Shown one piece after another: positions 2,865 to 49,186 of a stretch of 54,057 bases of DNA; positions within the stretch are counted from its first letter, which is position 1; each line of letters opens with the position of its first letter. Both the position numbers and the translations under genes were made by a program. The notes beneath the pieces are model-generated. The model searched no databases. It was not told the DNA's origin and saw only the letters and a list, made by a program, of their open reading frames with translations. Source of the DNA: Crocinitomicaceae bacterium (GTDB taxonomy: Bacteria; Bacteroidota; Bacteroidia; Flavobacteriales_D; Crocinitomicaceae); the NCBI GenBank assembly GCA_020832365.1, contig JAFIEX010000002.1:1-54057 (forward strand), written 5' to 3'.

Positions 2865-5800
2865 ATGATGAAGACTATTAATGTGTTACTCTTTACTGGT
2901 TTGTTTGCTTACCAGAGTGCTTTTTCACAACATGCAGCTTGGCATGATCAAATGCAGGATAACAAGGTGAATTTTTATGAAGTTCAAGAAAATTTTGAGC
3001 TTTATTGGGGCAATCGTGTTTATGAGCGTGGAAAAGGATTTAGACAATATAAAAGATGGGAGTGGTTTGCAGCGCCTAGGGTTTTCCCTTCAGGAGAAAG
3101 ACCGGTTTATTCTCATGCTTGGCAAGAAAGAAAGCTATTCGACCAAAATTATCCTTCAGGTGAATTAAGGAATCAAACTTGGCAGCCATTAGGACCAACC
3201 AGTTGGAGTGCAATTTCATCAGGTTATAATCCAGGGATTGGTAGGGTTAACTTCATTGTAGAAGACCCAAATAATAGCCAAATCGTATACATTGGTGCAC
3301 CAGCTGGTGGTCTGTGGAAAACAACCAACGGAGGAAATTCTTGGCAACCATTAACGGATGATTTTATGTCGCTTGGTGTTACGGGGATAGCTATAAATCC
3401 TTCTAACAGTCAAGAAATTTACATTGCCACTGGTGATGGTTTTGCAAGTGATAGCTACAGTGTAGGTGTATTTAAATCATTGGATGGTGGAGAAACTTGG
3501 CAACCAACAGGAATGAGTCAGCAAATAACTGATTTTGTTCGTTCTCGGAGATTGGTAATGCATCCAACTGATTTCAACACCCTGTTATTAGCTACAAATA
3601 CTGGATTGTTTAAAACGGTAGACGGTGGGTCGAATTGGCAACAAGTTCGCACGGGAAATTTTCGTGATGTTGTTTATCATCCTACTGATCATAATATTGT
3701 TTATGCTTCTACAAATAGGTTGTTTCGTTCCACGGATGGGGGAGATAATTTCAATGCCATAACAGGTGGACTTCCTTCTCCAACGCAATTGAACAGAATG
3801 GAAATAGCTGTTTCACCAGACGCACCAGATAGGGTGTATGTTGTTGCTGGCAAGTCATCTGATCACGGATTACATGGTGTTTACAGGTCAGACGATGCAG
3901 GGTTATCTTTTCCAACAGTATTTAATAGTAAGAATCTTTTTGGCTACAGTGAACTGGGAGATGATCAAGGCGGACAAAGTTGGTTTGATATGGCCATTGC
4001 TGTCAATCCAAATAATGCAGACCATATATTCATTGGTGGGGTAAATGTTTGGGAAAGTACAAATGGTGCACAGGACTTTACGATTAACTCTCATTGGGTT
4101 TTTCCAACGACTTTTAATTATACCCATGCCGACATTCATGCATTGGTTTTTTATGGTAATCGATTGTACTGTGGAAGTGATGGTGGCGTTTTTGTTTCTC
4201 ACGACGAAGGATCAAGTTTTTTAGATTTATCAGAAGGGCTTCAAATAGGTCAGTTTTATAGTATTGATGGAGCTAGTTATGATGCCAATCGCATTATTGG
4301 TGGCACACAAGATAATGGCTCAAAGTTAAAACTTTCACCGAATGACTGGGTTCATATAATGGGAGCCGATGGCATGCAGGCAAAATTTCATCCTACTAAT
4401 CCAAATGTAATGTATTGTACCCAACAGTTTGGTAATTTGCATCGCTCTACCAATGGCGGAAATAACTGGGAGTATATTTTTAATGGAGATTTTGAAGATG
4501 GTAATTGGGTAACTCCTTTTGAAATGAAATCAAATGGTGATTTGCTCATTGGATACGAAAGTATTTGGCTTAGCCAAAACAATGGTGCCAGTTTTAATGT
4601 GCATTCTGCTCCTTTGGTTTCAGGTAGCTCAATTAACTGTATTGAGATCTCAAAAAGTAATGAAAATACCATTTACGCCAGCGTGGAAAATCAAGTTTTT
4701 AGAACATCGAATGACGGCGTTGATTGGTCCAATATTACGAATAATTTACCCAATCTTTTTGTGACAGATATTGAGGTACATCCTCATAATCCAAATGTGG
4801 TTTATGTTGCTTTCTCGGGTTATTCAGCGACTGAAAAACTTTTTGTAAGTACTGATGGAGGTCAAAATTGGATGAATATTTCTAATAACCTACCAAATTT
4901 ACCAGCAAACGCATTGGCTTTTCAAGCAAATAGCAATGGTGGTCTTTATGTCGGAATGGATGTTGGTATTTATTATATTGATAGCACTTTATCAAGTTTT
5001 GTGGCTTATGATGAAGACTTGCCCAATGCACCAATTAGTGACTTGGTAATTCATGAAGGGACCAGCCATATTAAGGCAGCTACCTTTGGTCGTGGTGTCT
5101 GGGTAGCTGATTTGTTTACTGTTCCAGAAGTGCCACCCGTAGCGAGTTTTATTACTTCTAGCTTGTCCAATGTGTGCATGAATGACAGTGTATCCTTTTT
5201 TGACCAGTCACAATATGGTGGGAATAGATTTTGGTCTTTTCCTGGAGGTTTTCCAACCACAAGTGCCTTACAAAATCCAAAAGTTTACTTCCCTAGCTCG
5301 GGAGTTTATCACGTTATGCTGATTAGTACTAATGCATTTGGCACAGATACTTTGATTCAATCTATTGAAATCAATATGGGAGAAGGAGCTTTGTCAATTG
5401 CGTTACAAACGGATAATTATCCTTCTGAAACTTCTTGGGAAATATTGGATGATCAAGGAAATAGCGTTCTTCAGGGTGGTAATTACAACAGTGCTAACAC
5501 TTTATTTACTCAGAATGTCTGCTTAGATACTGGCTGTTATGTTTTTCATATTTATGATGAATGGGGAGATGGTATTTGCTGCGGGGAAGGAGAAGGGTTT
5601 TACGAGCTAACGCTTAACGGAGACGTTATTATTCTTGGAGGTGAATTTACATTTCAACAATCATATCCATTTTGTGTAGAATCATCATTAAGCCTTTCAG
5701 AACACAATATGATAAGTTTTATAGATGTGCTACTTTACCCAAATCCAACAACCAATATTTTAAATATAGAACCATCTGAAGAAACCTTAGAATATGATTG

Positions 5801-5957
5801 TGTGCTTTTTGATGCGATGGGTAAATTGGTTCAAAACTACCAAGGCATGAAAGGGAAACAAACTATTTCTTTAAGCAACTTAAGCTTAGGAACTTATTTC
5901 ATCAATATTGATTTTGGAAGCAGTGTAGTTCGAAAGAAAGTTGAAGTAATGCGTTAA
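2865..5957 (+). CDS. secreted Asp-box (BNR/VPS10-like) propeller protein with PKD and T9SS type A sorting domain
   Basis: A 1030-residue exported protein. A Sec signal peptide covers about residues 1-21 (hydrophobic core LLFTGLFAYQSAFSQ). Residues ~105-755 carry at least eight Asp-box or Asp-box-like motifs, for example FKSLDGGETW, FKTVDGGSNW, FRSTDGGDNF, HRSTNGGNNW and FVSTDGGQNW, as in sialidase and VPS10/sortilin propellers. A PKD-like domain follows (~765-845; core VCMNDSVSFFDQS), then a Cys-rich beta domain with DEWGDGICCGEGEGFYEL. The last ~75 residues are a T9SS type A domain with YPNPTTN and a KKVEV end. No sialidase catalytic residues could be identified, so it may be a binding or structural propeller rather than a glycosidase. 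The product should be handled by the PorU/PorV system encoded at 21-27 kb. No obvious operon partner. It converges on the lipoprotein gene after only 22 bases. Confidence 0.85.
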   Translation: MMKTINVLLFTGLFAYQSAFSQHAAWHDQMQDNKVNFYEVQENFELYWGNRVYERGKGFRQYKRWEWFAAPRVFPSGERPVYSHAWQERKLFDQNYPSGELRNQTWQPLGPTSWSAISSGYNPGIGRVNFIVEDPNNSQIVYIGAPAGGLWKTTNGGNSWQPLTDDFMSLGVTGIAINPSNSQEIYIATGDGFASDSYSVGVFKSLDGGETWQPTGMSQQITDFVRSRRLVMHPTDFNTLLLATNTGLFKTVDGGSNWQQVRTGNFRDVVYHPTDHNIVYASTNRLFRSTDGGDNFNAITGGLPSPTQLNRMEIAVSPDAPDRVYVVAGKSSDHGLHGVYRSDDAGLSFPTVFNSKNLFGYSELGDDQGGQSWFDMAIAVNPNNADHIFIGGVNVWESTNGAQDFTINSHWVFPTTFNYTHADIHALVFYGNRLYCGSDGGVFVSHDEGSSFLDLSEGLQIGQFYSIDGASYDANRIIGGTQDNGSKLKLSPNDWVHIMGADGMQAKFHPTNPNVMYCTQQFGNLHRSTNGGNNWEYIFNGDFEDGNWVTPFEMKSNGDLLIGYESIWLSQNNGASFNVHSAPLVSGSSINCIEISKSNENTIYASVENQVFRTSNDGVDWSNITNNLPNLFVTDIEVHPHNPNVVYVAFSGYSATEKLFVSTDGGQNWMNISNNLPNLPANALAFQANSNGGLYVGMDVGIYYIDSTLSSFVAYDEDLPNAPISDLVIHEGTSHIKAATFGRGVWVADLFTVPEVPPVASFITSSLSNVCMNDSVSFFDQSQYGGNRFWSFPGGFPTTSALQNPKVYFPSSGVYHVMLISTNAFGTDTLIQSIEINMGEGALSIALQTDNYPSETSWEILDDQGNSVLQGGNYNSANTLFTQNVCLDTGCYVFHIYDEWGDGICCGEGEGFYELTLNGDVIILGGEFTFQQSYPFCVESSLSLSEHNMISFIDVLLYPNPTTNILNIEPSEETLEYDCVLFDAMGKLVQNYQGMKGKQTISLSNLSLGTYFINIDFGSSVVRKKVEVMR

Positions 5958-16801: not shown

Positions 16802-18925
16802 ATGAAATTAAAAACGTTATTAGTTGTTACCTTTTTTATTGGAAGTTGGATTGCGCTAGCTCAGCCCTCTTATGTGGTTAATGCGAAATCAGCCTTTACC
16901 AACGGTGAATATTTTGAAGCAGCAGAGCAACTAACATCAGCTTATCAAAAAGTATCACCAAGAAATGCAAGGGCAAGAGATTTGAAAGCAGAATTGGCCT
17001 TTAAAGCAGGTTATTCTTATGAGATGATTTTCAACGATGCTGAAGCGGAAAATTGGTACCAGAGGGCTATTGATTTGCGCTATTACAAGCAAGAGCCTGA
17101 TGTGCACTTTAGAATTGCCAATGTACAAAGAAGGATGGGGAATTATGAAAAGGCTAAAGAGAATTATCAGCGCTTTTTAGAGCTGGTTCCTGAAGATCCT
17201 AAAGCAGAAAGAGCTATAGAGGCTATGCAAAAAGCAGGATTTTTTAAAGATAATAGAACTAGATACACTGTTCGAAATGAAAGAAAAATTAATACTGAGA
17301 ACTTTGAAATGTCACCTGTAATTGCAGACAGAAGAGGTAATGTCGTGGCTTTCGGTTCTACGAGAAAAGCAAAAACAAGTTCTGGGAAAGATCCGATTAT
17401 TGGTGAGCCCTATTTTAATATTTGGCAGGCGGAAAAAGATAGAAGTGGAAATTGGACAGAGCCTGTGCTTTTTATGGATGCAGATTCATTAAACACTGAA
17501 TACAATGAAGGAACTGTTGCTTTTGATGAAGGATATAGAAAAATGTTTATTACGCGATGTCCACACCAAAAGAAACAAAATTTAGGTTGTCAAATATGGA
17601 TCTCTGAAAGAAGAGGACGGAATTGGGGTGTGCCGCAAAGAGTAATGCTTCAACCGCATGATTCAATTTCTATAGGACATCCATGTCCTATGCCTGATGG
17701 CAACTCAATGGTTTTTGCAAGTGATTTGCCAGGTGGTCAAGGTGGTATGGATTTATGGTACAGCACCTTTGATAGAAGGTCTAGTACTTGGTCTGAACCG
17801 GTTAATTTAGGCCCAGAAGTTAATACACCAGGTGATGAACTTTTTCCTACATTAGCTTTAAATGGTGATTTGTTTTTTGCTTCTAACGGACACATCGGAT
17901 TAGGTGGTTTGGATATTTTTAAAGCGATAAGACAAGGAGACAATATGAGGTGGATTGAACCTGAGAATATGGGTACACCAATAAACTCAGATGCAGACGA
18001 TTATCATCTTACTGAGGTAGATAAGAGAAATGGTTATTTTACTTCCACAAGAAAAGGTTCTTTAGGTACTAGAGGTCTAGGAGATATTTGGTCCTATGAA
18101 TTACCCCCAAACTTATTTACCTTAAAAGTGTATGTTAATGAAATAGGCTCGCCAGATCGAATTCCTGGCGCAACTATTCAAGTTAATGGAGGTGGTGAAA
18201 CCTTTACTGGTGTAACTAACGCAGAAGGGGTGTTCTTCTGGGATAAAAAAGTAGATGGTAATAGATTCATTAATGAAGAAACAAGCTACGAAGTTCGTAT
18301 ACTTCCTTTGGAAGGATATCACGAAAGTAGTGATGTTGGTAAATTCTCCACTATTGGACTAGAGTATGATCAAGACTTTATCATCGAAATACCATTATTA
18401 GCCAAAACTCCTATTGTATTGCCTGAGGTGCGTTATGCGCTTGCAAGATGGGAGTTGCTAATTGATGAGACTATTAACTCAAAAGACTCATTAAACTTTG
18501 TTGTGGACTTATTAGAAGAATATCCTGGAATGAAGTTGAAGTTGATGTCGCACACGGATTCAAGAGGTACTGCTCAGTCCAATAAAGTATTAGCTGAGAA
18601 AAGGGCTCAGTCTTGTGTGGACTATTTAGTGAAAGAAAGAGGAGTTGATCCTAGAAGATTGGTTGCTGAGGGTCGAGGAGAAGATGACCCAAGAACAATT
18701 TTTAAGGTAGAGGGTGATTATAGAGTTAAACGACCAACGGACGGAACACCTTATGAGGAGATACTTCTGTCAGAAGCATACATTAATCAATATAAAGGAA
18801 AAGATAACAACATAATGTTTGAGCGCCTGCATCAGTATAATCGTAGAACTGAAGCGGAAGTGCTAAGGATGGATTGGGAGCCAGAAGAAGGAGAAGATCA
18901 ATCTGAGGATGTTGAAATAGAATAG
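16802..18925 (+). CDS. porE: T9SS component PorE-like: TPR, PD40 propeller, regulatory-like and OmpA domains
   Basis: A 707-residue envelope protein. After a signal peptide (KTLLVVTFFIGSWIALAQ) come TPR-like helices (residues ~28-155; YEKAKENYQRFLELVPEDPK). A PD40/WD40-like propeller follows (~160-430; MVFASDLPGGQGGMDLWYST, GDLFFASNGHIGLGGLDIFK). A carboxypeptidase-regulatory-like domain covers ~435-530, and the OmpA C-terminal peptidoglycan-binding domain ~545-650 (LKLMSHTDSRGTAQSNKVLA, EKRAQSCVDYLVKERGV). This order is that of P. gingivalis PorE (PG1058), which tethers the T9SS to peptidoglycan. P. gingivalis PorE is a lipoprotein, but here no lipobox Cys is visible, an unusual point. An acidic tail (EEGEDQSEDVEIE) ends the protein. 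The closeness of porV and the PorU-type gene (2-6 kb downstream) supports the call; other PD40/OmpA paralogues of unknown role remain possible. Confidence 0.72.
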   Translation: MKLKTLLVVTFFIGSWIALAQPSYVVNAKSAFTNGEYFEAAEQLTSAYQKVSPRNARARDLKAELAFKAGYSYEMIFNDAEAENWYQRAIDLRYYKQEPDVHFRIANVQRRMGNYEKAKENYQRFLELVPEDPKAERAIEAMQKAGFFKDNRTRYTVRNERKINTENFEMSPVIADRRGNVVAFGSTRKAKTSSGKDPIIGEPYFNIWQAEKDRSGNWTEPVLFMDADSLNTEYNEGTVAFDEGYRKMFITRCPHQKKQNLGCQIWISERRGRNWGVPQRVMLQPHDSISIGHPCPMPDGNSMVFASDLPGGQGGMDLWYSTFDRRSSTWSEPVNLGPEVNTPGDELFPTLALNGDLFFASNGHIGLGGLDIFKAIRQGDNMRWIEPENMGTPINSDADDYHLTEVDKRNGYFTSTRKGSLGTRGLGDIWSYELPPNLFTLKVYVNEIGSPDRIPGATIQVNGGGETFTGVTNAEGVFFWDKKVDGNRFINEETSYEVRILPLEGYHESSDVGKFSTIGLEYDQDFIIEIPLLAKTPIVLPEVRYALARWELLIDETINSKDSLNFVVDLLEEYPGMKLKLMSHTDSRGTAQSNKVLAEKRAQSCVDYLVKERGVDPRRLVAEGRGEDDPRTIFKVEGDYRVKRPTDGTPYEEILLSEAYINQYKGKDNNIMFERLHQYNRRTEAEVLRMDWEPEEGEDQSEDVEIE

Positions 18926-20997: not shown

Positions 20998-21073
20998 TAA
21001 TTATCTGATAAAAAAATGATTGAATAAATAATTTTTTGCGAATTTTGATGTTATCTATGTTGTGAATGCCAAT

Positions 21074-22189
21074 ATGAAAAATAAAATTATCGTTGTTTTC
21101 TCTTGTCTATTGCTAATGCAGTCATTGGTAGCGCAACAAAACGAAAGTACTAACGCACCGAAATATTCGAACGAGTTTTTACAGATAGGAGTTGGGGCTC
21201 GTGCACTTGGTTTAGGTAACGCTTTGGTAGCAGGGGTAGATGACGTAACGGCAGGTTACTGGAATCCAGCTGGTTTAACCCATGTTACAAATAATTTGGA
21301 GTTTGCTTTAATGCATTCCGAATATTTCGCAGGAATCGCAAAATATGATTACATAGGAATTGCGCACAGTATAGATGATGAAAGTGCGATTGGTTTTACG
21401 GCGCTGCGCTTTGGAGTTGATGACATCCCAAATACAACGCAATTGATCAATAATGAAGGAAATATCGATTACGATCGAATTACCTTATTTACTGCCGCTG
21501 ATTATGCTTTTCTTCTATCTTATGCGCGCAAAGTAAGAAACATTGAAGGAATGTCTTATGGTGGCTCTTTTAAAGTTGTTCATAGGAGAGCTGGAGATTT
21601 TGCTAGAGCTTGGGGGTTTGGAATTGATGTTGGGATGCAATATCAGCCGAAATCTGGCTGGGAGTTTGGAGCAATTGTTAGGGATGCAACATCTACATTT
21701 AACGCATGGATATTTAATTTGGATGCGCAAATGCAAGAGGTATTTATTGATACAGGCAACGAAATTCCAGAAAACGGACTCGAAATTACCATGCCAAGGG
21801 TGATTTTGGCTGCAAGAAAAAAAATCGATATTGGACAAAAAGGTATTTTTATTGCGCCTGAAATCAATTCCGCTGTAACCACTGATGGTAGACGTAATAC
21901 CTTAGTGCAATCGAATATTTTTAGTATGGATCCAGTAATGGGCGTGGAAGTTGGTTATCAAGACTTGGTGAGGTTAAGAGGCGGAGTTAGTAATTTTCAA
22001 TATTTGAAAAATTTTGATGCAACCCAATATCTGACTTTTCAACCGAATATTGGTGTAGGTGTAACTTTGAAAGGTGTTACGTTGGACTATGCTTTTACGA
22101 ATATTGGGAATCAAGAAGAATCGCTTTTTTCTCATGTTATTTCTCTGAAATTTGGCTTCAGAGAGCCATTTAAGCGGGTTGGTGAATAG
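21074..22189 (+). CDS. porV: T9SS outer-membrane shuttle protein PorV (LptO)
   Basis: Outer-membrane FadL-like barrel that carries T9SS cargo from the translocon to the sortase complex. The ATG at 21074 gives 371 residues with a signal peptide (KNKIIVVFSCLLLMQSLVAQ); a GTG at 21062 would only add four residues. The family hallmark EFLQIGVGARALGLGNALVA and the downstream DDVTAGYWNPAGLTHV are clear, and the protein ends in a beta-strand GFREPFKRVGE. A UPF0164/PorV-type barrel of this length is expected. It is followed after 161 bases by the PorU-type sortase, the usual partner, so the pair is functionally linked although each seems to have its own promoter. PorQ paralogues are a less likely alternative. 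Confidence 0.9.
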   Translation: MKNKIIVVFSCLLLMQSLVAQQNESTNAPKYSNEFLQIGVGARALGLGNALVAGVDDVTAGYWNPAGLTHVTNNLEFALMHSEYFAGIAKYDYIGIAHSIDDESAIGFTALRFGVDDIPNTTQLINNEGNIDYDRITLFTAADYAFLLSYARKVRNIEGMSYGGSFKVVHRRAGDFARAWGFGIDVGMQYQPKSGWEFGAIVRDATSTFNAWIFNLDAQMQEVFIDTGNEIPENGLEITMPRVILAARKKIDIGQKGIFIAPEINSAVTTDGRRNTLVQSNIFSMDPVMGVEVGYQDLVRLRGGVSNFQYLKNFDATQYLTFQPNIGVGVTLKGVTLDYAFTNIGNQEESLFSHVISLKFGFREPFKRVGE

Positions 22190-22271
22190 CCGACAGAAAA
22201 CTTTCATTTTTGAAATTTTCATTTCCTTAAGTTCCGTATTTTCAATAGAATAATATAAAAAATACACTTTG

Positions 22272-22320
22272 ATTTTAACACTTAAACCAATTTATTTTTT
22301 ACTTTTGTTAGTGTTAAAAT
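22272..22320. promoter_or_regulatory. 11-bp inverted repeat flanking the porU promoter
   Basis: ATTTTAACACT (22272-22282) and AGTGTTAAAAT (22310-22320) are perfect inverted copies separated by 27 bases. The perfect -7 element TACTTTTG (22300-22307) lies between the arms, so the right arm covers the expected start of transcription. That geometry suits a repressor or other dimeric regulator. Confidence 0.55.
22300..22307 (+). promoter_or_regulatory. -7 element of the PorU-type gene
   Basis: TACTTTTG matches TAnnTTTG, 43 bases before the ATG at 22351. It sits inside the inverted repeat described for 22272-22320. Confidence 0.5.
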
Positions 22321-22350
22321 TCAAGAAATTAAATTGTTTGTTTCGATAGG

Positions 22351-25300
22351 ATGAAAAATATACCATCTTTTCTTTTGTTTTTACTGTCTTTGTGTTCATT
22401 GACTGTATTTGCACAGCCTTATGGAAATGAATGGATTAATTATAATCAGCAGTATTATACCATGAAAATTACCAGTACTGGTTTGTATAGGATAAGTTTT
22501 CAAACATTACAAAACGCTGGTATTAATCCTTCTTCAATAGCTCCTCAAGACTTTCAGGTTTTTGGAAAAGAGAGAGAACAGCCAATTCGCGTAGAAGACG
22601 GTGGTGATGGTGTTTTTGGTCCAGGCGATTTTATTGAGTTTTATGCACAAAGAAATGATGGTTGGTTAGATTCGCTGCTGTACAATGATCCTAATACGAT
22701 TTCCAATCCTGCTTATAGTTTATACAACGATACGCTAGTTTATTTCTTGACTTGGCGTTCTGGAAGTAATAAAAGATTTGTACAAGAGACAGATGTTAAT
22801 TTTGGGATTTACTCACCGGCAATTTTTTTTTGGCAACGCACTGCAATCAATTATAATTCAAATTATTACGGTGGAAATAATATCTTGAATGCTTTTTCTT
22901 CCTTTTTTGAACCAGGAGAAGGTTGGGGAGGCTCTAACAACAATGGGGCTAATGGATTTACATTAAATATTGCTGTCCCAACACCTAATGCTTTTACGGG
23001 TGCAGGTGCACCTCCAGTTGCCTTTCACGGTAAAAGTATGGCGAACTCTAATGCTAACTTTACCGGACAAGGAAATCATCACTTGCGCTGGGAAGTAGGT
23101 TCAACGAATCAAATGCTTTACAGCGAAATATTTATCGGGATAAGACAAACCATTGTTAATGAAACTTTTTCGCCTAATTTATTGTCTTCACCTAATACAA
23201 ATGTGGCTTTCAGAATAATTGGAGATCAAGGAGCCGCAACGGACTTTCAATCAGTACATTATTTACACTTGGATTATCCAAGACAACCCAATATTGGTAA
23301 TTTAACTTACAATGAGTTTTGGGTTGAAAACAACCCAACTCAAGCCAAGATTCGATTAGATTTAACCGCTACTAACCTTAATAATCCTGCTTGTTATGTG
23401 TTTGATGGTAATGTTCCCAGAAGAATACCAATGGTGAATAACGGTGGTGTTTGGCAGCTACTTATCCCCAATTCAACTGTTGGTACGCGACAAAGAGTAG
23501 TTATTGCAAGTCAGAATCAAATTCAAAATATTACTTCTTTAATGCCAGTAAATGGTAACGGTCAATTTACGAATTTCAATAATGTTAATTTTGAATCAGC
23601 TTTTATCATGGTGACCCATAAAAGCTTGCAATCGGCTTCGAACCAATATCGTAACTACAGATCCTCTGCTGCGGGAGGTGGACACAATAGCGTATTGTTG
23701 GATGTTGATGAACTTTATTTGCAATTTGGAGGTGGAGTGATGAAACACATCTTTGGCATAAGAAGAATGGCGAATTTTGCGTATAATGCTACCATCGATA
23801 AGCCAGTGGGACTCTTGCTAATGGGTAAAGGCATCCGTGAGGCTAATGAGCCTAATACTTTTACGGGGGCTGGTACACGAAAAAGCGCTGCCTCTTATGC
23901 TAATTCATTGGTGCCGAGTTATGGATATCCTTCCAGTGATAATATTATTACTGCACGATTTAACAATAGTAATTCTTGGGCGCCATTTATTCCTACAGGT
24001 CGCATTGCTGCAAGAAATAACGCTGATTTAGCAGCATATTTAGAGAAACTTCAAGTATATGAAAATGCGCAAAACCAGAATGATGTTTACAATAAACCCA
24101 ATAAAGAATGGCAAAAGCAAATTCTACATTTTGGAGGTGGTGCCAATGCCGGCGAGCAACAAACCTTTAGAACTTATTTGAACAACATGAAGCATACCAT
24201 TGAAAACCAATACTTTGGTGGTAATGTGACATCCTATTTTAAAGATAATTCTAATCCATTTAACCCTGTCTTGACAACAGAAGTTACAGCTCGTTTGCAA
24301 GAAGGTGTTTCTTTAATGACTTTTTTCGGTCACGCATCTGCTACTGGTTTTGATCAAAATGTTGATGATCCTGAAAATTGGGGTAATACAGGAAAATATC
24401 CTATATTACTTGGTAATTCCTGTTATACAGGTGATATTTTTCAACCTATTGGCCAGTCTGCTTCTGAGCGATTTGTTTTGATTCCAAACCTTGGAACAGT
24501 AGGATTTCTGTCCTCCACAAAATTGGGATTTGCTTCATTTTTGTATAATTTCTCTAGTGAATTGTATCGTCAAATCAGTCCTAAAAATTATGGGCTTCCT
24601 CTCGCTCAACAATTGAAAAAAACGATTGAAGCTATCGAAGGAAATAGCACGAACTTTATTCTTGAAACAACCGTTCAGCAAATGGCTTTGCATGGGGATC
24701 CATTAATGAAGTTAAATTGGCACTCGCTTCCTGAAATTGACCTTACTATTCAAGATGTTTTCTTTGAACCTACTTCCTTCGACTTAACAACTGACTCCAT
24801 TCAAATGAATGTAGTACTGACAAATTTAGGAAAGAGCATTCTAGATACTTTCAGCTTGGACATCCGCCGAATGTTCCCAAGTTCAGACATTGACTCTTTG
24901 TACAAGTTTGAAATCAAAGGATTGCATTACCGCGATACTTTTACTTTCAAGATGCCCTTACAGCCTCAAATTGGAATAGGATTAAATAGTTTTAATATTC
25001 AAGCAGATATTCCGTCTTTTGTTGATGAAATTTATGATGAATACGGAAATAATGAGGTTACGGTAGATTTATTCATTAACATTGACGGTATTATTCCTGT
25101 TTTACCTTATAACTATGCGGTCGTCCCCAATGATTCTGTAGTTTTAAAAGCCTCCACCATCAATCCAATTGCTGGCTTCAACACCTATCGTTTTGAAATT
25201 GACACAACGGATTTGTTTAACAGTCCGCAGCACAGATATGCAATGGTGAGTGGTTTAGGAGGGGTAAAGGAGGTGTTTCCAAATGACTGGAGATTTGTAT

Positions 25301-27501
25301 CCAACAATGCTAGTGCACCACTAATTTTAAAGGATAGTATGGCTTATTTTTGGAGGGTTGCTGTGGATAGTACAACCCCTTTTTGGATTGAACATTCTTT
25401 TCAATATATCAAAGGTAAAGAAGGATGGGGCCAAGACCATTTTTACCAGTTCAAAAATGGTGGTTTTAATGGTGTTAATTATGACAGACCTTCTAGGCAG
25501 CGGAAGTTTGAGCCAGCGTTTAGAGAACTCCAAGCGCAAGTCCATGATAATGCATCAAATGCCACTACATTGTCCCAGACACTTTGGATGATGAATGGCG
25601 AAATCGTTGAATATGCAGTATGTACAACTACCCCTTCTATTCATGTTGGTGTTGTGGACCCTGTAACTTTTGAGCCTTGGGGAACTTTTAATGGAGGACA
25701 AAATGTGAACAACCAATTTGGAAACGCCAATAATGGAGCAGCATGTAGAAATAGAGTAGAATTCTACTTTATTTTCCGTCAGAATAGCACTGCGCAATTG
25801 CAGAATTTAGAAAATATGCTGAATGCTATTCCAAATGGTCATCACATTGTGATCTACACCTCTCGATTTGCGCAATACGATAATTGGCAAAATCTACATC
25901 CAAGTCTTTTTCAAACTTTTCAAGCCCTAGGAGCTACAGGTATTGCGCCAGGACAGCCAAACCGAGCATTTGCTATGGTGATTACAAAGGGTGATCCGAC
26001 ATCAACTCAAATTATTCATGCTGAAAATGCCGGGGATTTTATTCAAGTAGCTAAAACAGTTGAAGGATCTGCTTTTAAAGGCACTGAGCGTTCTACTATT
26101 ATAGGACCCGCCTTAAAATGGCACACGGTTTATTGGAAACAAGATCCATTGGAGAATCCTAATTTTGATAAAACAAAGCTCTCGATTCGTGCATTAGACG
26201 CAAATCGTTCATTTCAATTTCAAATAGATACAACTTTTACACCAAATGACTCCATTATCAATTTTAATAATTTGATAGATGCCGCTCAATATCCTTACTT
26301 GCAATTGCAGGCCACTTATATTGATAGTATTGATCAAACTCCAGCACAAATTGATAGATGGCATGTACTTTACGAAACACTTCCGGAAGCAGCAATAGAT
26401 GGAACTTTGCAATATACTTTTAAACCGAATTCACCAGACTCTTTGCGTGAAGGTCAAGATATTTCCTTTGCAGTTGATGTCAAAAACATTAGTCATCTTC
26501 CTATGGATTCTCTACTTGTCAATTACTGGATTGTGGATCGCAACCAAAATATTCACCCAATCAGTTATCCGCGACAAGACTCTCTGCGAGTTGGGGAAAC
26601 TTTAAGAGACACGATTACGTTTCCTACCATTGGTCTTGTTGGTAACAATGTCCTATGGATGGAGGTAAATCCTTTTTTGAATGTTTCTGCTTCTTTGATA
26701 AAAGACCAGCCTGAATTAGCCCATTTTAATAATGTATTGCAATTGCCATTTCATATTGCTGAAGATGACATCAACCCTATTCTAGATGTTACATTTGATG
26801 GAATACATCTATTGAATGGTGATATTGTAAATCCTCGTTCTGAGATTGTTATTACCTTGAAAGATAATAACCCTTACCTAGTAATGGACTCTGATAAAGA
26901 TACGAGCTTATTTGGAATATTTTTAACTCCACCTTCAGGAGTTCAAAAAAAGATCCCTTTTTTAGATGGTAGTGGTAACCAAATTATGCAGTGGATACCA
27001 GCAGATGGTGATAATTTGAAATTTAAAATTATTTTCCCTGCTGAATTTGAGGAAGATGGTGAATACGAACTGCTCGTGCAGGGTGCCGACCGTTCAGGAA
27101 ATTTATCCGGAGATTTAGAATACCGAATTAAATTTGATGTAATTCTTGGCTCTTCCATTACCCATATGATGAATTATCCCAACCCTTTCTCAACCAAAAC
27201 GCGGTTTGTGTTTACGTTAACAGGAATGGAAGTGCCTGACGAGATACTCATTCGAATCATGACGGTTACAGGAAGGGTGGTAAGAGAAATTACACAAGAC
27301 GAGTTGGGACCAATTCGGATTGGAAGAAATATTACAGAGTATGCTTGGGATGGAAGAGATGAGTTTGGTGACCAATTGGCCAATGGGGTTTATCTATACC
27401 AAGTTACAGCGAGAATTAATGGAGAATCGATAGAGCATAGAAGTTCTGGAGCGGATCAACATTTTAAACGTAACTGGGGTAAAATGTACCTCATGCGTTA
27501 A
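22351..27501 (+). CDS. porU: T9SS sortase, PorU-type C25 cysteine peptidase, long form
   Basis: A 1716-residue cell-surface gingipain-fold peptidase that removes sorting domains from T9SS cargo and attaches the cargo to the surface. A signal peptide covers ~1-22. An N-terminal beta region starts GNEWINYNQQYYTMKITSTG. The C25 domain contains the catalytic His in MTFFGHASATGF (His 661) and Cys in LLGNSCYTGD (Cys 691). CARDB/Ig-like modules follow from ~785. Residues ~1085-1230 resemble an ILEI/FAM3 domain (SIHVGVVDPVTFEPWG, LNAIPNGHHIVIYTSRF, FQALGATGIAP, FAMVITKGDP). The C-terminus (~1610-1716) has a FlgD/T9SS-type module with MNYPNPFS and NGVYLYQV. P. gingivalis PorU is about 1160 residues, so this is the longer variant; the N-terminus recalls forms called long PorU or PorU2. 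Its position after porV favours the main sortase role. Confidence 0.85.
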   Translation: MKNIPSFLLFLLSLCSLTVFAQPYGNEWINYNQQYYTMKITSTGLYRISFQTLQNAGINPSSIAPQDFQVFGKEREQPIRVEDGGDGVFGPGDFIEFYAQRNDGWLDSLLYNDPNTISNPAYSLYNDTLVYFLTWRSGSNKRFVQETDVNFGIYSPAIFFWQRTAINYNSNYYGGNNILNAFSSFFEPGEGWGGSNNNGANGFTLNIAVPTPNAFTGAGAPPVAFHGKSMANSNANFTGQGNHHLRWEVGSTNQMLYSEIFIGIRQTIVNETFSPNLLSSPNTNVAFRIIGDQGAATDFQSVHYLHLDYPRQPNIGNLTYNEFWVENNPTQAKIRLDLTATNLNNPACYVFDGNVPRRIPMVNNGGVWQLLIPNSTVGTRQRVVIASQNQIQNITSLMPVNGNGQFTNFNNVNFESAFIMVTHKSLQSASNQYRNYRSSAAGGGHNSVLLDVDELYLQFGGGVMKHIFGIRRMANFAYNATIDKPVGLLLMGKGIREANEPNTFTGAGTRKSAASYANSLVPSYGYPSSDNIITARFNNSNSWAPFIPTGRIAARNNADLAAYLEKLQVYENAQNQNDVYNKPNKEWQKQILHFGGGANAGEQQTFRTYLNNMKHTIENQYFGGNVTSYFKDNSNPFNPVLTTEVTARLQEGVSLMTFFGHASATGFDQNVDDPENWGNTGKYPILLGNSCYTGDIFQPIGQSASERFVLIPNLGTVGFLSSTKLGFASFLYNFSSELYRQISPKNYGLPLAQQLKKTIEAIEGNSTNFILETTVQQMALHGDPLMKLNWHSLPEIDLTIQDVFFEPTSFDLTTDSIQMNVVLTNLGKSILDTFSLDIRRMFPSSDIDSLYKFEIKGLHYRDTFTFKMPLQPQIGIGLNSFNIQADIPSFVDEIYDEYGNNEVTVDLFINIDGIIPVLPYNYAVVPNDSVVLKASTINPIAGFNTYRFEIDTTDLFNSPQHRYAMVSGLGGVKEVFPNDWRFVSNNASAPLILKDSMAYFWRVAVDSTTPFWIEHSFQYIKGKEGWGQDHFYQFKNGGFNGVNYDRPSRQRKFEPAFRELQAQVHDNASNATTLSQTLWMMNGEIVEYAVCTTTPSIHVGVVDPVTFEPWGTFNGGQNVNNQFGNANNGAACRNRVEFYFIFRQNSTAQLQNLENMLNAIPNGHHIVIYTSRFAQYDNWQNLHPSLFQTFQALGATGIAPGQPNRAFAMVITKGDPTSTQIIHAENAGDFIQVAKTVEGSAFKGTERSTIIGPALKWHTVYWKQDPLENPNFDKTKLSIRALDANRSFQFQIDTTFTPNDSIINFNNLIDAAQYPYLQLQATYIDSIDQTPAQIDRWHVLYETLPEAAIDGTLQYTFKPNSPDSLREGQDISFAVDVKNISHLPMDSLLVNYWIVDRNQNIHPISYPRQDSLRVGETLRDTITFPTIGLVGNNVLWMEVNPFLNVSASLIKDQPELAHFNNVLQLPFHIAEDDINPILDVTFDGIHLLNGDIVNPRSEIVITLKDNNPYLVMDSDKDTSLFGIFLTPPSGVQKKIPFLDGSGNQIMQWIPADGDNLKFKIIFPAEFEEDGEYELLVQGADRSGNLSGDLEYRIKFDVILGSSITHMMNYPNPFSTKTRFVFTLTGMEVPDEILIRIMTVTGRVVREITQDELGPIRIGRNITEYAWDGRDEFGDQLANGVYLYQVTARINGESIEHRSSGADQHFKRNWGKMYLMR

Positions 27502-37779: not shown

Positions 37780-37857
37780 ATGGCAACCATAATTGAATTG
37801 GTGCGTTACTCAAACAACACTTGCTGTGGAGGAAGAACAATTAAAATTACTGATTAA
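37780..37857 (+). CDS. possible 25-codon leader ORF overlapping the sigma gene start
   Basis: ATG at 37780 opens a frame of 25 codons (MATIIELVRYSNNT start) ending TAA at 37855-37857, about 30 bases inside the sigma coding region in another frame. It is the only ATG before the sigma gene. It may be a translated leader whose ribosomes reinitiate at the sigma GTG, or the remnant of a one-base indel that separated the original start from the sigma frame. No family match. Confidence 0.25.
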   Translation: MATIIELVRYSNNTCCGGRTIKITD

Positions 37858-38401
37858 GCAATGTGCATTAGGAAAAAGACTTGCGCAGAAAAAATTGTTC
37901 GAGAAATTCTATGGAAAGTTGTTGGGGGTTTGTATGCGTTACATTAGTGACCATGACCAAGCTCAAGAGGTGGTGCAAGAGGGTTTTATTAAGATTTTTG
38001 ATAAGCTGGCAGACTTTGATTTCAAAGGGTCATTTGAAGGATGGATGAGGAGGATAATTGTGAATGCTGCGATTGATAAAATCCGCTACAATAAAAGGCA
38101 AGCAATTAGCACAGATAATGATTTTTTGTTGGGTGCAAATCAATATGAAGAAGATGATGCTTTTGCAAATGAGGTCTTGATTAAATTAAAAGCAGAGGAG
38201 GCGATGAAAGCAGTTCAATCTCTCTCCCCTGCATACAGAACAGTATTTAATTTGTACGTTATTGAAAACTATTCTCACAGTGAAATAGCAAAAATATTAG
38301 GGATTTCAGAAGGGACTTCAAAGTCTAACTTAGCAAAAGCCAAACAAAACCTTAGGAAACTCTTAGAAGAAAAATTTAGCCGATTAGACAACGAATTATG
38401 A
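37826..38401 (+). CDS. ECF sigma factor (RpoE-like)
   Basis: Regions are clear: sigma-2 at ~10-80 (QKKLFEKFYGKLLGVCMRYI, AQEVVQEGFIKIFDKLADFD, GWMRRIIVNAAIDKIRYNKR) and sigma-4 at ~125-185 (LSPAYRTVFNLYVIENYSHS, EIAKILGISEGTSKSNLAKA). The frame has no ATG start: it opens at TAA 37790-37792. GTG at 37826 gives 191 residues with the usual family start (MEEEQLKLLIKQCALGKRLA); TTG at 37793 would add 11 residues. The stop overlaps the ATG of the next gene by four bases (ATGA), the usual sigma/anti-sigma arrangement. Two palindromes and a near-consensus -7 element lie upstream. Confidence 0.92.
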   Translation: MEEEQLKLLIKQCALGKRLAQKKLFEKFYGKLLGVCMRYISDHDQAQEVVQEGFIKIFDKLADFDFKGSFEGWMRRIIVNAAIDKIRYNKRQAISTDNDFLLGANQYEEDDAFANEVLIKLKAEEAMKAVQSLSPAYRTVFNLYVIENYSHSEIAKILGISEGTSKSNLAKAKQNLRKLLEEKFSRLDNEL

Positions 38402-39702
38402 GTAAGTTATTAGAGAAAATATTTAAAGAAAAATTACAGGACTACGACGCTGGTCTTTCTAATGATGCATGGAGGTCTTTCGAAAAGAAGTTAGACACTG
38501 GTAATGGATTTAGCAACAATTTGAAATATGTGTTGTGGTCTGTGGCAATAGTTGCTATATTAGTTCCATTAATGTATTTCTCATTACAAACACCTGATAG
38601 TAAAAATCAATATTTTTCTGAAAACAATTCGCAGAATTTTACAGATGTATCAGAGGAAACCAATAGCTTAGAGGAGAAAATAATAAGTGATAATGCTAAA
38701 CGATTACCTGACGCTTATGAAAGTGAGAATTCCGAAAGTAGTGAAGTCACGCTAAAAACAAATGAGCCTAGGCAATTGCTTGGTAAATCAGATAATGAGT
38801 ATGAATATCAGGAGGACGTCGCTGATATGAATCAATCAGCTCCAAATGAAAAAACAACGGAAAAATTAAGTCATGCCTCACCAGCATATGAAAAACAAAT
38901 GTTCTCCAAAGAGGATAAAAAAGAAGTTCAGAAAACTTTCGTGCCGGGTGTGGTTACCAAAGACTTCCTTTGTAAAGGAGAAACCACTAAGGTTAAAAAT
39001 ACTTCAAGCTCTGAAAACGAATTGGTTCGTTTGGATGTAGATGGGGTTGTCATTGATTTACAGCCAGGTAAAGAGTTGGAGCTTAATCTTGCATCTTCCT
39101 CTCAAATCTTATTTCTCAACAAGAAAAACGAAGTAATTGACTCCAAACAAATTGAAGTATTGAAAAGTGATTTACCAGTACCTAATGTTGTCGCTAATGT
39201 ATTTGATGAAGGATTGCCAGTTGCTGAGGTAAATTTAATAGGTACTTTCAAAAGCGCCAATTGGTACTTTGACAATCGAATGATAGGCGAAGGGGCTCAG
39301 CAATCTATTCACACGTTTTATAAAGGGAATCATTTTGTATATGTGAGAGGTACAGATGAGAACGGTTGTGCTTTTAATCTGGAGATTCCAATTCATGTGG
39401 AAAATGACTATAATCTAATGGCTCCAAACAGCTTATCCCCTGAGGGTGGTGATGTTAGAAGAAGAACCTTTATTCCTTTTGCACTTAAGCAAAGAGAGAC
39501 GCCTTTCACGATGTTTATTATTGATCCTAGGGATAATGATGTGATTTACACCACTAGAGACGTTAATTCCCCATGGGATGGTGTAGATAGAAGAACAGGT
39601 AAATTGGTTTCTAAAGAAAGATCATTTGTTTGGAAAGTTCAATTAGAATCACCCGAGAAAGGGGAGAAAAATATATACATTGGTAACGTTATACATTTCT
39701 AA
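38398..39702 (+). CDS. single-pass membrane protein, probable anti-sigma factor with a T9SS type-B-like (CHU_C) distal domain
   Basis: A 434-residue protein in the position of an anti-sigma factor (ATGA overlap). The short N-terminus (~1-40), with LQDYDAGLSNDAWRSFEKKL, matches the cytoplasmic segment of Bacteroidota regulators encoded next to ECF sigma factors. One membrane helix lies at ~43-63 (YVLWSVAIVAILVPLMYFSL). A Ser/Glu-rich stalk reaches ~185; two Ig/PKD-like modules follow (FLCKGETTKVKNTSSSENEL, GTFKSANWYFDNRMIG). The last ~100 residues read APNSLSPEGGDVRRRTFIPF, FTMFIIDPRDNDVIYTTRDV and WDGVDRR, the pattern of T9SS type-B (CHU_C) domains (normally APN.FSPN.DG, IYDRWG.., GWDG..G). 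No signal peptide is seen, so the C-terminus should be periplasmic and tethered. A role as a sensor of T9SS state is inference. Confidence 0.75.
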   Translation: MSKLLEKIFKEKLQDYDAGLSNDAWRSFEKKLDTGNGFSNNLKYVLWSVAIVAILVPLMYFSLQTPDSKNQYFSENNSQNFTDVSEETNSLEEKIISDNAKRLPDAYESENSESSEVTLKTNEPRQLLGKSDNEYEYQEDVADMNQSAPNEKTTEKLSHASPAYEKQMFSKEDKKEVQKTFVPGVVTKDFLCKGETTKVKNTSSSENELVRLDVDGVVIDLQPGKELELNLASSSQILFLNKKNEVIDSKQIEVLKSDLPVPNVVANVFDEGLPVAEVNLIGTFKSANWYFDNRMIGEGAQQSIHTFYKGNHFVYVRGTDENGCAFNLEIPIHVENDYNLMAPNSLSPEGGDVRRRTFIPFALKQRETPFTMFIIDPRDNDVIYTTRDVNSPWDGVDRRTGKLVSKERSFVWKVQLESPEKGEKNIYIGNVIHF

Positions 39703-44866: not shown

Positions 44867-47800
44867 TTATTGCTTCACAACTCTTTTTACTGCCACCTGT
44901 TCACCTTTCCCGATTTTTACAAGGTAAACACCTGGTGACCAGCTGGAACTGCTTATCGTTTTGGTTTTACTCGGTTTGTCTGAAATTCGGTAAAGCAGCC
45001 TACCAGTTAAATCAACTACCTCAATGTGGTCAAACGTTGTTGTGGATTTAATCTCAAACGTTGTTTGGAATGGATTCGGATATACAACAATATCATTTTC
45101 AGTCCATTCATTTATACCTAATGGCATTGGGTCTCCTTTTAGAGTGATATTATCAATTCTGTTATTGCCATTTGACTGGTTGGTGTTTCCATTAAAGGTA
45201 ATTTGAACGGTGAAATTAGGATTGTTGTTTACTACACTGATGCTTGAAAAATCTATGCTTACGAGTTCGTAGTTTTCTTGAATAGCGACAGTTGTAAATG
45301 GTAAGTCAGTTTGGATGAAGTTTACGCCATCTATACTATAGGCAATTTGATGAAATAACATTCCTTGACCAGATCGATGAACAGCATATTCAAACACTAA
45401 ATTTTCATAACCGTCACTAGCAACGTTAAACGTTAATGATCTATTCACAGCGGGGTTTCGAATTCGTGCAGCTTTTCCATCGGACTGTAATAAGTGTAAA
45501 TTAAGCAGTGAACCAGGATTAAATTCATCCATGTCCCTACCTCCAACTCCGGTGTATGTCATATCTGGAATGAAATTGGGAAATATGGAATAGTCCGCTG
45601 CAATATATTTAACATCACCTGATGAGGTGCTTAAATCATTAAAGTGCCAATAGTAAATCAAATCTTGTCCAGAATCATTAGGGTCATAAAAGACCGCTTT
45701 AATTGTAGCGTTTTGATTAATTTCGAGGAAAGTGTTGAGTGAATCACTGTGCGGTAAAATGTTGTGATTAGTTACTTCCCAATGACTAAAGAGGTATTGT
45801 CCGTTTCCTTCCGCTGTTAGCAACGTTGAAATATTCCCATAAACAAAAGCTTCAAATGGATAATTGGGTAACCATTCGGAGTTCATTTTTATTTTCCCAG
45901 CACCTGCGGGCTCAACTTCAAATGTTACGTCGTATGGTCCTGTTAAATCATAACAAGTTAACATGCTCTGTTTAACTACTTCGCATCGGTCTTCAATCCA
46001 CTGTTTTAAATCATCTACGTTTTGCTGCCACTCTTGCATGGTTCCACCCCATCGATCTAATTGTTTAGGCATTTCCGGTTCAATCACGCCAATCATACTG
46101 TCTAGCACATGAATTAAATTATTGCAATGGAATTTCGTATTCAATAAATCAGCATACCTTGTAATATAGCGCTGTCTTACTTCAGGGTTTTCATCCATGA
46201 ATTTATTCAAAATTGCAATGTGACCATCCCCAACATTTAAACTTTCAATTTGACAAATCGGTGCGTTTACACTAGCGTCAGGCAATCCTGTCCAATTGAT
46301 GTAATGACCGAAAGCGGCTTCTGTGTCCCATAAAATATAACGCCATTTTCTGGCATCGCCACTGGCATTCAGTCCTCTCCACCAACCGGTATTATAATTT
46401 AACCAGTCTCTAGAAACAATAAAAGAGTTGACCACTTTATGGTCTATCATACTCGTTATGTCGAATAAACTGTCTGCAATAGCGAAATTAGCGGGATCTC
46501 CCATATTGTTATTGAGAATAAAGTTTCTCGTTGTGCCCCAATCTTGAATCGCTTTTGCTTCGCCATATTTTGGGACGGTATTTCCCCATGTTTTGATGAA
46601 TTGAACATATTCCTCGCTGCCTTTGTATTTTCTTCTTTGGTTATAGTAAAACCTTGTAAAATCTTTGTCATCTACTTTTTCACGAAGGTCATAAACACCC
46701 CAGTACTGACCATTCACAAAAACAATGCAATTGGTCGAGGACCTTTCGTCCATTTCTAAATCGGTAAGTTGTGACAAAGATTGAACATATGAATCTCGAA
46801 TATGCGCTCCACCTTGTTCGAAGGGATAGTTGTCGTTGGCTGCGGCTTTAACCATCAATCGTTGAAAGTTTTCTCTATTTTTTGTTTCAAAAAACTTGGA
46901 TGAAAGCTCAGCATTGTATCCATATTCATCCCTTGAAACGAAATCTACGCCTCGTTGCGGATATTGCCAAGAATCATTTCCATGTTTATCAAATTCGCAG
47001 TAAGACTCATCAATTAAGTCACCATTTTCATCAAAAAACTCAACCCCGCCTAAAGGCTCAATTTGTGTTCCATTGAATAAGGTTAAGAGTTGATCTCCAC
47101 TAAATGAAAAAACGGGTAATGAGAAGGATTCATTAATAAAATAGGTATTCGTTTCCATGAACCCAGGGAGTTTCTGTCCACTATTGTCGAAGCACCTTGC
47201 TCTCACCACAGTAGTTTGGCTAATGCTAATAGGGGAAACGTAAAGTGTTGATTGCGCGTTGGGTTCAGAACCGTCTAGTGTATATCTAATTACTTCTCCA
47301 GCACCTGCGCCACTTAACGCGACTAGAACAGGGCTATTGTAAAAGCCTGGTGCAATTGAAAAAGTAGGTTTTTCAGTATAACCTAAAAATGCATTCATGT
47401 TAGTAGCTCCCGGGGTTGGATTGGCAAAAACACCCCAATCAGGCCCTCCATTTGATGTTCTGCCGTAGGAATGCCCATTTTGTGTTACCCAAAGTTGGTA
47501 GGATTCCAATAAAGTTCCGTTTGGCTCTGACAATAAAATGTGTTCAGGTTGAAGTTGAGAAAGCCGAAAGTTGGCATGTGGTATGCCTCCTGCAAGCGTG
47601 TCTCTTCCTGAACAAATCACCTTAAGAAACTGATCTGGACCTATGAAAACTGGCGGCATTTGCCATTTTGTTGGGTTGTTCGGATTGTCACTCAAATAAT
47701 ACCCTGTTAAATCCACAAAATTATTCGAAGTGTTGTATAATTCAACCCAGTCTTCAAAGTTGCCAAAAGCATCTAAAACCTGTCGATTAGAAGCAGAATA

Positions 47801-49186
47801 CTCGTTGATGACAATCAATCCAGGACCAAAGTTGATTGCGTCAAAATGCGTCACTTCAATGTATCTTCTATTGATAAAATTAAAGGTGGCGTTACAACCG
47901 CTTCCACCCCATACTCTTGATGCGTGAAAGTCAAATGAAACACTGCCTGTTGAGTTTCCATTGGCAATATTTGTACTTGTGGTATAAGTTTGAACACCTT
48001 CCGTGGCTCCTGTTCCAATAAATACAGGTGTAGAACCATTCGTGCTGCTAACAAAAGAACGCTGGTCTTCTGTCCATGCACCCGAATTGTTGACAGCGGT
48101 AAATTCCCAAAGCAAAAATGTTTCCGTAATTGTGTCATTTACAGGGATATTTACATTAAGGTTTCCAGTTTCATAGTTGGGAAAAAAACAGGAAGGTAAG
48201 GCATTAAGATTTTCTACTATGACAATAGGGTCAATAACCACGGGAAAAATTCGATTTGAACTTTGTAACCAGTCATTTGCAACGGCAATCGCTAGTCTAT
48301 AATTGTTTTCAGATAATTTTGTAAGTTGATAATAGCCATCAGTTTGAGCTCTTTTTCTGTCTTCGGTAGCATATTTAGGCGCAGGTCTTTGTACACCGTT
48401 CATTTCAATTATTGGATTTGCTGGAGTGCTCCCATCCGTTATTGAAGGAAGCGTGAAAACTTGCTGAACTTGTCCATTCTCATCCAGCAGCGCAATAGGC
48501 TGATTGATTAGTTTTTTATCTTGAATCTTGTTGCCATTAATAGTTTGAAAATACCACCCGACGGGTATCGTTAAGTCTTCTTCAATAAAAAACCATTTTG
48601 TATCATTTAGGTCAGGTGACGAATTCAAAATATAATCAGTTTTCAAATAACTTGCATTGAACGTTATCTCCTTAGATATACCATTTACAAGGTTGTTCAG
48701 CACTAGTAGTGTTTCGTCTTTTTGATGGGTTGAAGCGTTGTTATTTTCTGCATGTCGTATTTTTTTATCTCCAGTTACTGTTATTACGCCCATGGTAATA
48801 TTTCCTCCAAGCTGGATAAAATTGTTTTTGGATAATGTCAAACTTTTATTATTGGCTTCGAAAGAGACCCAAGGAGCGTTTACTGGAAAAACGTATTGAT
48901 TTTCACTTTTCCCTAATCGGTAATCATAGCTTATCCATTCTTCTTTTTCATTCTTAAAATGCAATGGAACATCAGAAAAGCCTGAAATTTTACCACCATC
49001 AGGCAATACAAATAATCTCGAATGGGCTGTTCGAGCTGTAATTTCTTCCTCAGCATTTTGGTATTTTGAGTGCATTGGATGATAAAGCCCGATTTCTGGA
49101 TGTCTCTCTGTAGGAGGGTTGTTATATTGTGCTTTAAAAGAAAAACAAACGAAACAAACGCTCAATAGTAGTATTAATTCCTTCAT
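44867..49186 (-). CDS. very large secreted CotH/lamin-tail protein with T9SS type A sorting domain
   Basis: A 1439-residue exported protein. Signal peptide ~1-19. A long N-terminal region (~20-440) has beta-rich, Asn/Thr-rich sequence without a recognised family. A lamin-tail domain follows (~455-560; LIVINEYSASNRQVLDAFGN, DWVELYNTSN, VDLTGYYLSDN). A chitobiase/HEX C-terminal-like Ig module comes at ~605-675 (PVLVALSGAGAGEVIRYTLD). A CotH-kinase domain spans ~690-1040, with WGVYDLREKVDDKDFTRFYY and YILWDTEAAFGHYINW. A T9SS type A domain ends the protein (VYPNPFQTTF, SWSPGVYLVKIGKGEQ). CotH kinases in eukaryotes and Bacillus phosphorylate coat proteins; here the substrate is unknown. It lies downstream of a GT4 gene on the same strand. 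Confidence 0.87.
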   Translation of the reverse strand: MKELILLLSVCFVCFSFKAQYNNPPTERHPEIGLYHPMHSKYQNAEEEITARTAHSRLFVLPDGGKISGFSDVPLHFKNEKEEWISYDYRLGKSENQYVFPVNAPWVSFEANNKSLTLSKNNFIQLGGNITMGVITVTGDKKIRHAENNNASTHQKDETLLVLNNLVNGISKEITFNASYLKTDYILNSSPDLNDTKWFFIEEDLTIPVGWYFQTINGNKIQDKKLINQPIALLDENGQVQQVFTLPSITDGSTPANPIIEMNGVQRPAPKYATEDRKRAQTDGYYQLTKLSENNYRLAIAVANDWLQSSNRIFPVVIDPIVIVENLNALPSCFFPNYETGNLNVNIPVNDTITETFLLWEFTAVNNSGAWTEDQRSFVSSTNGSTPVFIGTGATEGVQTYTTSTNIANGNSTGSVSFDFHASRVWGGSGCNATFNFINRRYIEVTHFDAINFGPGLIVINEYSASNRQVLDAFGNFEDWVELYNTSNNFVDLTGYYLSDNPNNPTKWQMPPVFIGPDQFLKVICSGRDTLAGGIPHANFRLSQLQPEHILLSEPNGTLLESYQLWVTQNGHSYGRTSNGGPDWGVFANPTPGATNMNAFLGYTEKPTFSIAPGFYNSPVLVALSGAGAGEVIRYTLDGSEPNAQSTLYVSPISISQTTVVRARCFDNSGQKLPGFMETNTYFINESFSLPVFSFSGDQLLTLFNGTQIEPLGGVEFFDENGDLIDESYCEFDKHGNDSWQYPQRGVDFVSRDEYGYNAELSSKFFETKNRENFQRLMVKAAANDNYPFEQGGAHIRDSYVQSLSQLTDLEMDERSSTNCIVFVNGQYWGVYDLREKVDDKDFTRFYYNQRRKYKGSEEYVQFIKTWGNTVPKYGEAKAIQDWGTTRNFILNNNMGDPANFAIADSLFDITSMIDHKVVNSFIVSRDWLNYNTGWWRGLNASGDARKWRYILWDTEAAFGHYINWTGLPDASVNAPICQIESLNVGDGHIAILNKFMDENPEVRQRYITRYADLLNTKFHCNNLIHVLDSMIGVIEPEMPKQLDRWGGTMQEWQQNVDDLKQWIEDRCEVVKQSMLTCYDLTGPYDVTFEVEPAGAGKIKMNSEWLPNYPFEAFVYGNISTLLTAEGNGQYLFSHWEVTNHNILPHSDSLNTFLEINQNATIKAVFYDPNDSGQDLIYYWHFNDLSTSSGDVKYIAADYSIFPNFIPDMTYTGVGGRDMDEFNPGSLLNLHLLQSDGKAARIRNPAVNRSLTFNVASDGYENLVFEYAVHRSGQGMLFHQIAYSIDGVNFIQTDLPFTTVAIQENYELVSIDFSSISVVNNNPNFTVQITFNGNTNQSNGNNRIDNITLKGDPMPLGINEWTENDIVVYPNPFQTTFEIKSTTTFDHIEVVDLTGRLLYRISDKPSKTKTISSSSWSPGVYLVKIGKGEQVAVKRVVKQ

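Follow-up and report, generated by a model that had tools for sequence, protein, structure and literature searches.

A conserved ECF sigma factor/anti-sigma-like pair whose tethered partner ends in a modified T9SS type-B-like sorting domain

The window analyzed here, a 54,057-nucleotide stretch of a Crocinitomicaceae genome (contig JAFIEX010000002.1), contains a two-gene operon that pairs an ECF sigma factor with a predicted membrane-tethered anti-sigma factor ending in a type-B-like sorting domain of the type IX secretion system (T9SS). The best explanation, advanced tentatively and with somewhat less than even confidence, is that a tether resembling those of the Dma factors carries a modified cargo tag and couples T9SS cargo transcription to the secretion state; the same joint estimate covers the reading of the two genes, from their sequences, as an autoregulated sigma/anti-sigma pair. 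The computed support consists of (i) gene order, (ii) protein architecture, (iii) domain homology, (iv) a conserved promoter, and (v) predicted targets that encode T9SS cargo. New here is the promoter GGCAACC-N15-CGT[CT], which lies on the operon and, in relatives, often just upstream of secreted-protein genes.

Table 1. Features of the operon and of its tethered product, in window coordinates
Feature	Coordinates	Strand	Remarks
ECF-type promoter GGCAACC-N15-CGTT	37782..37807	+	-35 at 37782-37788, -10 at 37804-37807; 18 bp before sigma start
ECF sigma factor	37826..38401	+	191 aa, GTG start
Anti-sigma-like tethered protein with T9SS type-B-like C-terminus	38398..39702	+	ORF, 434 aa, ATG start
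Probable sigma-binding domain, two-helix cytoplasmic segment, residues 1-35	38398..38502	+	Invariant W25; putative
Transmembrane helix (N-in), residues 43-62	38524..38583	+	AlphaFold helix; hydrophobic stretch aligned in orthologs; topology inferred
Disordered periplasmic tether, residues 64-175	38587..38922	+	pLDDT <50 over 64-161
Cargo-like Ig/PKD-type beta region, residues 181-335	38938..39402	+	pLDDT mostly 84-97
Modified T9SS type-B sorting domain, residues 336-434	39403..39699	+	WDG and W/V strand features kept; NRWG absent; FTPNGDG degenerate

The upstream gene encodes a clear ECF sigma factor, with Pfam matches to Sigma70_r2 (4.5e-16) and Sigma70_r4_2 (9.6e-16). It likely starts at the GTG at 37826 rather than the TTG at 37793, and its product shares 42-67% identity with its orthologs. 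The sigma stop and the partner start overlap in the sequence ATGA. The coordinates and four-base overlap that the original prediction gave for the partner gene are exact, and the strings it quoted (APNSLSPEGGD, IIDPRDNDVIYTTR, and WDGVDRR) are all found in the 434-residue protein. Its sigma/anti-sigma operon plan is likewise supported.

The pair is strongly conserved. Across 59 genomes, comprising the window's own and its relatives, the tethered protein has a match in 58, most of them full-length orthologs of about 400-520 residues. Comparison of 40 loci around the best match, one of which begins inside the gene at a contig end, places an ECF sigma gene directly upstream in all 39 checkable relatives. 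The next gene upstream is a divergent mdh in 34 of 39 loci; at the window locus, two small genes lie between mdh and the sigma gene. On the 3′ side, many genomes outside the window's family carry a gene for a large secreted protein, and the order sigma factor, anti-sigma factor, type-B cargo gene recurs in several families.

The promoter is the sole GGCAACC-N15-CGTT site within the window. Ahead of the sigma gene, 34 of 40 operons have the motif, or a variant with one or two changed bases in the -35 element, at a spacing of 14-16, which is exactly 15 in 32 of those 34. The other six have an over-extended start call, and at least four of them carry the strict motif. The operon promoter is near-invariant and appears to be of an autoregulatory type. 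Total motif counts across the 59 genomes are near background and not clearly above a reversed-pattern control; raw counts were therefore rejected as evidence, and motif position was used instead.

The tethered protein opens with predicted helices at residues 2-15 and 22-33 (AlphaFold) and shares with the other sequences of a 39-member set the A1 consensus IKxxLExxExPYDxxAWxxxxxxL, in which W25 is invariant. A Pfam and NCBIfam scan matched no curated anti-sigma family to this N-terminus. The putative sigma-binding motif is duplicated in the orthologs at loci L065-L068, L071, and L072, and triplicated in L067. No cleavable signal peptide was seen. The distance from the end of the transmembrane helix to the first conserved cysteine, C192, is 86-155 residues (median 121) among 39 orthologs; C192 (CxGE) is near-invariant and C324 (NGC) is invariant in the 39 sequences. 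AlphaFold confidence is high from about residue 180 on, with a dip to the mid-80s near 251-270, and 13 of 39 orthologs have PKD-type matches in this region. Matches of orthologs to TIGR00864 (polycystin) were read as PKD-type repeats and not as channel homology.

The original prediction also likened the C-terminus to the CHU_C/T9SS type-B domain, a claim that did not survive as a single-sequence profile test and stands on family evidence. In direct NCBIfam and Pfam scans, the window protein matches neither TIGR04131/CHU_C nor any other family at E<=10, and a single-sequence scan of the genome's contigs found nothing; since such scans miss CHU_C, the resemblance was tested via relatives. TIGR04131 is matched at E<=0.01 by 15 of 39 orthologs, with scores reaching 35.6-41.9 bits, above the curated 35-bit cut-off. 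Aligned by hhalign with 8 type-B domains from the window's own genome, 26 ortholog C-termini reach 99.1% (E 1.8e-18), and residues ~255-432 match giant secreted proteins in relatives. The AlphaFold model of the last 102 residues (pLDDT 91) sets four strands against a less ordered portion, which is the predicted shape of type-B C-terminal domains (CTDs) (PMC12618676), and a Foldseek search with the CTD alone places PorZ on top as a weak match (E 0.028, probability 0.97). The predicted family-level homology of the C-terminal region to T9SS type-B (TIGR04131-like) domains thus holds, and the original proposal of such a distal domain on a membrane-tethered protein is upheld by the transmembrane helix, the tether, and the ortholog and hhalign comparisons.

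The domain is nevertheless modified. FTPNGDG-like loops are canonical in distant orthologs and lost in the window's clade, and the best whole-model Foldseek matches are unspecific, comprising filament/adhesin and Ig-like proteins. This erosion of CTD motifs and the unspecific Ig-like matches would fit a beta region that came from a cargo gene and serves just as an Ig-like sensor in the periplasm, without touching the T9SS, a reading made quite improbable by the canonical loops of distant orthologs, by W and G positions that are kept across the order, and by a predicted regulon of cargo. The NRWG motif of cargo domains is found in 0 of 39 orthologs, and its N, R, and G are invariant in the 8 type-B domains compared from this genome. 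In the SprB CTD each of five conserved motifs is needed, and mutation of any one stops secretion (PMC12618676); on the assumption that NRWG belongs to one of the five, its absence suggests that the domain of the tethered protein may bind without undergoing export, or may make no contact with the T9SS. A decoy role for the CTD, as originally proposed, is possible given that all 39 orthologs lack NRWG.

The genome has a T9SS: it encodes SprA and 10 PorP/SprF-like proteins over cut-off. Elsewhere in the window are adjacent genes for T9SS-related PorV2-like (NF052325, 495 bits) and PorU2-like (NF052324, 737 bits) proteins at 21062-27501; two type-A T9SS sorting-domain proteins at 2865-5957 and 44867-49186 (-), the second with a CotH domain; and, at 16802-18925, a PorE/CHU_0125-like TPR-propeller-OmpA protein that falls short of the curated cut-offs.

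Genes behind the promoter indicate what the sigma factor may control. In an unselected set (the first motif match per genome, with the operon's own site dropped), 12 of 19 sites lie 5-80 bp before an ORF called as signal-peptide-bearing by a simple hydropathy rule. With a control spacing of 10 the count is 1 of 30; for the unaltered motif in other genomes of the same class or phylum it is 0 of 30 (Fisher 5e-7 vs 12/19), the latter sites coming from 23 of 30 comparison genomes that were selected as having no close ortholog of the pair, although most carry related sigma factors. A larger set, partly picked by eye and hence biased, yields 27 of 62. The one further strict site in the window's own genome lies 19 bp ahead of a signal-peptide ORF that is cut off by the contig end and is related to a gene behind the same promoter in genome G045. 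All 10 scanned downstream C-termini exceed the cut-off, 7 for TIGR04131 (type B) and 3 for TIGR04183 (type A); these were taken from complete ORFs, leaving out L286 (unclear by eye) and L288 (type-A-like by eye). The predicted targets, several of which are very large repeat proteins, comprise type A and B cargo together with a handful of PorP/SprF-like genes and small secreted proteins. Small secreted proteins of 115-142 residues lie directly behind the motif at L117, L128, L131, L137, L140, L141, L156, and L162, and some recur across genera. Thus, the sigma factor appears, from promoter position, to control T9SS cargo genes behind GGCAACC-N15-CGTY, and with exported proteins as its predicted targets it may keep cargo synthesis in step with export.

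These targets support the link to the T9SS drawn in the original prediction, as do the conserved pair and the autoregulatory-type promoter; they do not support its stress-sensing circuit, since a set of this kind is not a repair regulon. A response of opposite sign, which comes near the original proposal and in which a non-exportable decoy CTD is held by a T9SS part and jamming, congestion, or envelope damage frees the sigma factor, is consistent with the absence of NRWG from all 39 CTDs (binding without export), the membrane tethering of the CTD protein, and the few PorP/SprF-like genes behind the promoter. It is considered unlikely because extra cargo, the main predicted target, would worsen a jam, and because no chaperone, protease, or T9SS-core genes were recognized behind the promoter in the set read.

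In Bacteroidota more widely, the counterpart of the tethered-protein gene frequently has a barrel-like end, reminiscent of Dma anti-sigma factors. In named loci (Fluviicola, Crocinitomix, Vicingaceae, and others), the closest sigma relatives show the CTD type together with the promoter, and more distant ones have tails that are short or barrel-like; barrels were called solely from length and an aromatic last residue, and CTD calls as weak as 20-40 bits were accepted. Behind the same promoter motif, the partner at L232 has a barrel-like tail, and those at L226 and L227 end at 226-244 residues without a CTD. A quick sigma tree, weakly supported at some points, requires four switches between CTD and barrel tails, and the N-termini of CTD-type and barrel-ended partners align with an hhalign score of 94.7% (E 6e-8). 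Similar N-termini combined with tail changes suggest that the outer-membrane end of these predicted partner proteins is exchangeable, as in the Dma factors (PMC13088901). Type-B CTD proteins bind, and stay bound to, PorP/SprF-type outer-membrane proteins at the surface (PMC9143113). Together with the barrel-like tails of sister partner genes and the very large repeat proteins among the predicted targets, this would be compatible with a CTD that serves only as an outer-membrane anchor in place of the Dma barrel and reports an external signal (surface contact, a polymer, or a ligand) rather than secretion load. Such an anchor seems improbable, in that it leaves the T9SS-cargo identity of the targets unexplained by itself and the cargo-like region has no recognized ligand-binding domain.

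A cargo-like tethered end and a sigma factor predicted to act on cargo genes point to the preferred reading, that cargo synthesis is coupled to export. The anti-sigma factor probably spans the periplasm: its N-terminus would hold the sigma factor in the cytoplasm, a flexible tether of ~110 residues would cross the periplasm, and the modified type-B domain would engage the outer-membrane export route (the SprA translocon or a PorP/SprF-type shuttle). When the route is free for the cargo-like end, a pull or changed state would lead to loss of the anti-sigma factor, probably by proteolysis, and the freed sigma factor would transcribe its own operon and the T9SS cargo genes behind GGCAACC-N15-CGTY. 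With the route saturated or missing, the anti-sigma factor would persist unbroken and cargo synthesis would be kept low. We infer sigma binding, contact with T9SS parts, the response sign, and proteolysis; the direction of the response is taken from the cargo identity of the targets, and its sign is a guess.

FlgM is a flagellar anti-sigma factor that is itself a substrate of the flagellar secretion system. Under the best explanation, the tethered protein would be analogous, in that it would carry an export signal for the very system whose cargo genes are under its control; unlike FlgM, it is an unrelated and membrane-tethered protein that belongs to a different export system, and its export is putative. 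By this analogy, a FlgM-like T9SS checkpoint can be envisaged in which the modified cargo tag reads free export capacity and switches cargo genes on, with the secretion signal taking the place of the outer-membrane barrel of Dma-type anti-sigma factors; this joint reading is possible, though doubtful. A literature search for FlgM with type IX secretion gave nothing relevant.

Three other known systems bear comparison. Dma is a dual membrane-spanning anti-sigma family of Bacteroides thetaiotaomicron (PMC13088901), and the window protein shares its plan: an N-terminal sigma-binding segment (putative here, and compared with barrel-ended partners, not with Dma1/Dma2 themselves), one transmembrane helix, a long disordered tether, a C-terminal outer-membrane-type module, and a gene next to an ECF sigma factor. 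The outer end is type-B-like instead of a C-terminal beta-barrel, and the predicted targets are T9SS cargo instead of vesiculation/PUL genes. As in the PorA/PorXY-SigP route of Porphyromonas gingivalis (PMC7712824), a T9SS-CTD protein would act upstream of an ECF sigma factor that controls T9SS genes; PorA, however, is a separate surface protein working via a two-component system, whereas the CTD here lies on the presumed anti-sigma factor itself. Type-B cargo (SprB, PG1035; TIGR04131) has a homologous CTD after a PKD/Ig-like region, but differs from the window protein in lacking its transmembrane tether, in its cleavable signal peptide, and in its NRWG motif; nor was a porP/sprF gene recognized adjoining the pair in the window.

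No matching report of such an anti-sigma factor was found in the literature searched, whose coverage leaves out most subscription journals, and the PorXY-SigP route is the only one known there that matches T9SS cargo synthesis to export capacity. If the present reading is true, a conserved, cargo-tagged anti-sigma factor over cargo genes would provide a direct feedback link between the two, and the outer-membrane end of such anti-sigma factors would be shown to be exchangeable.
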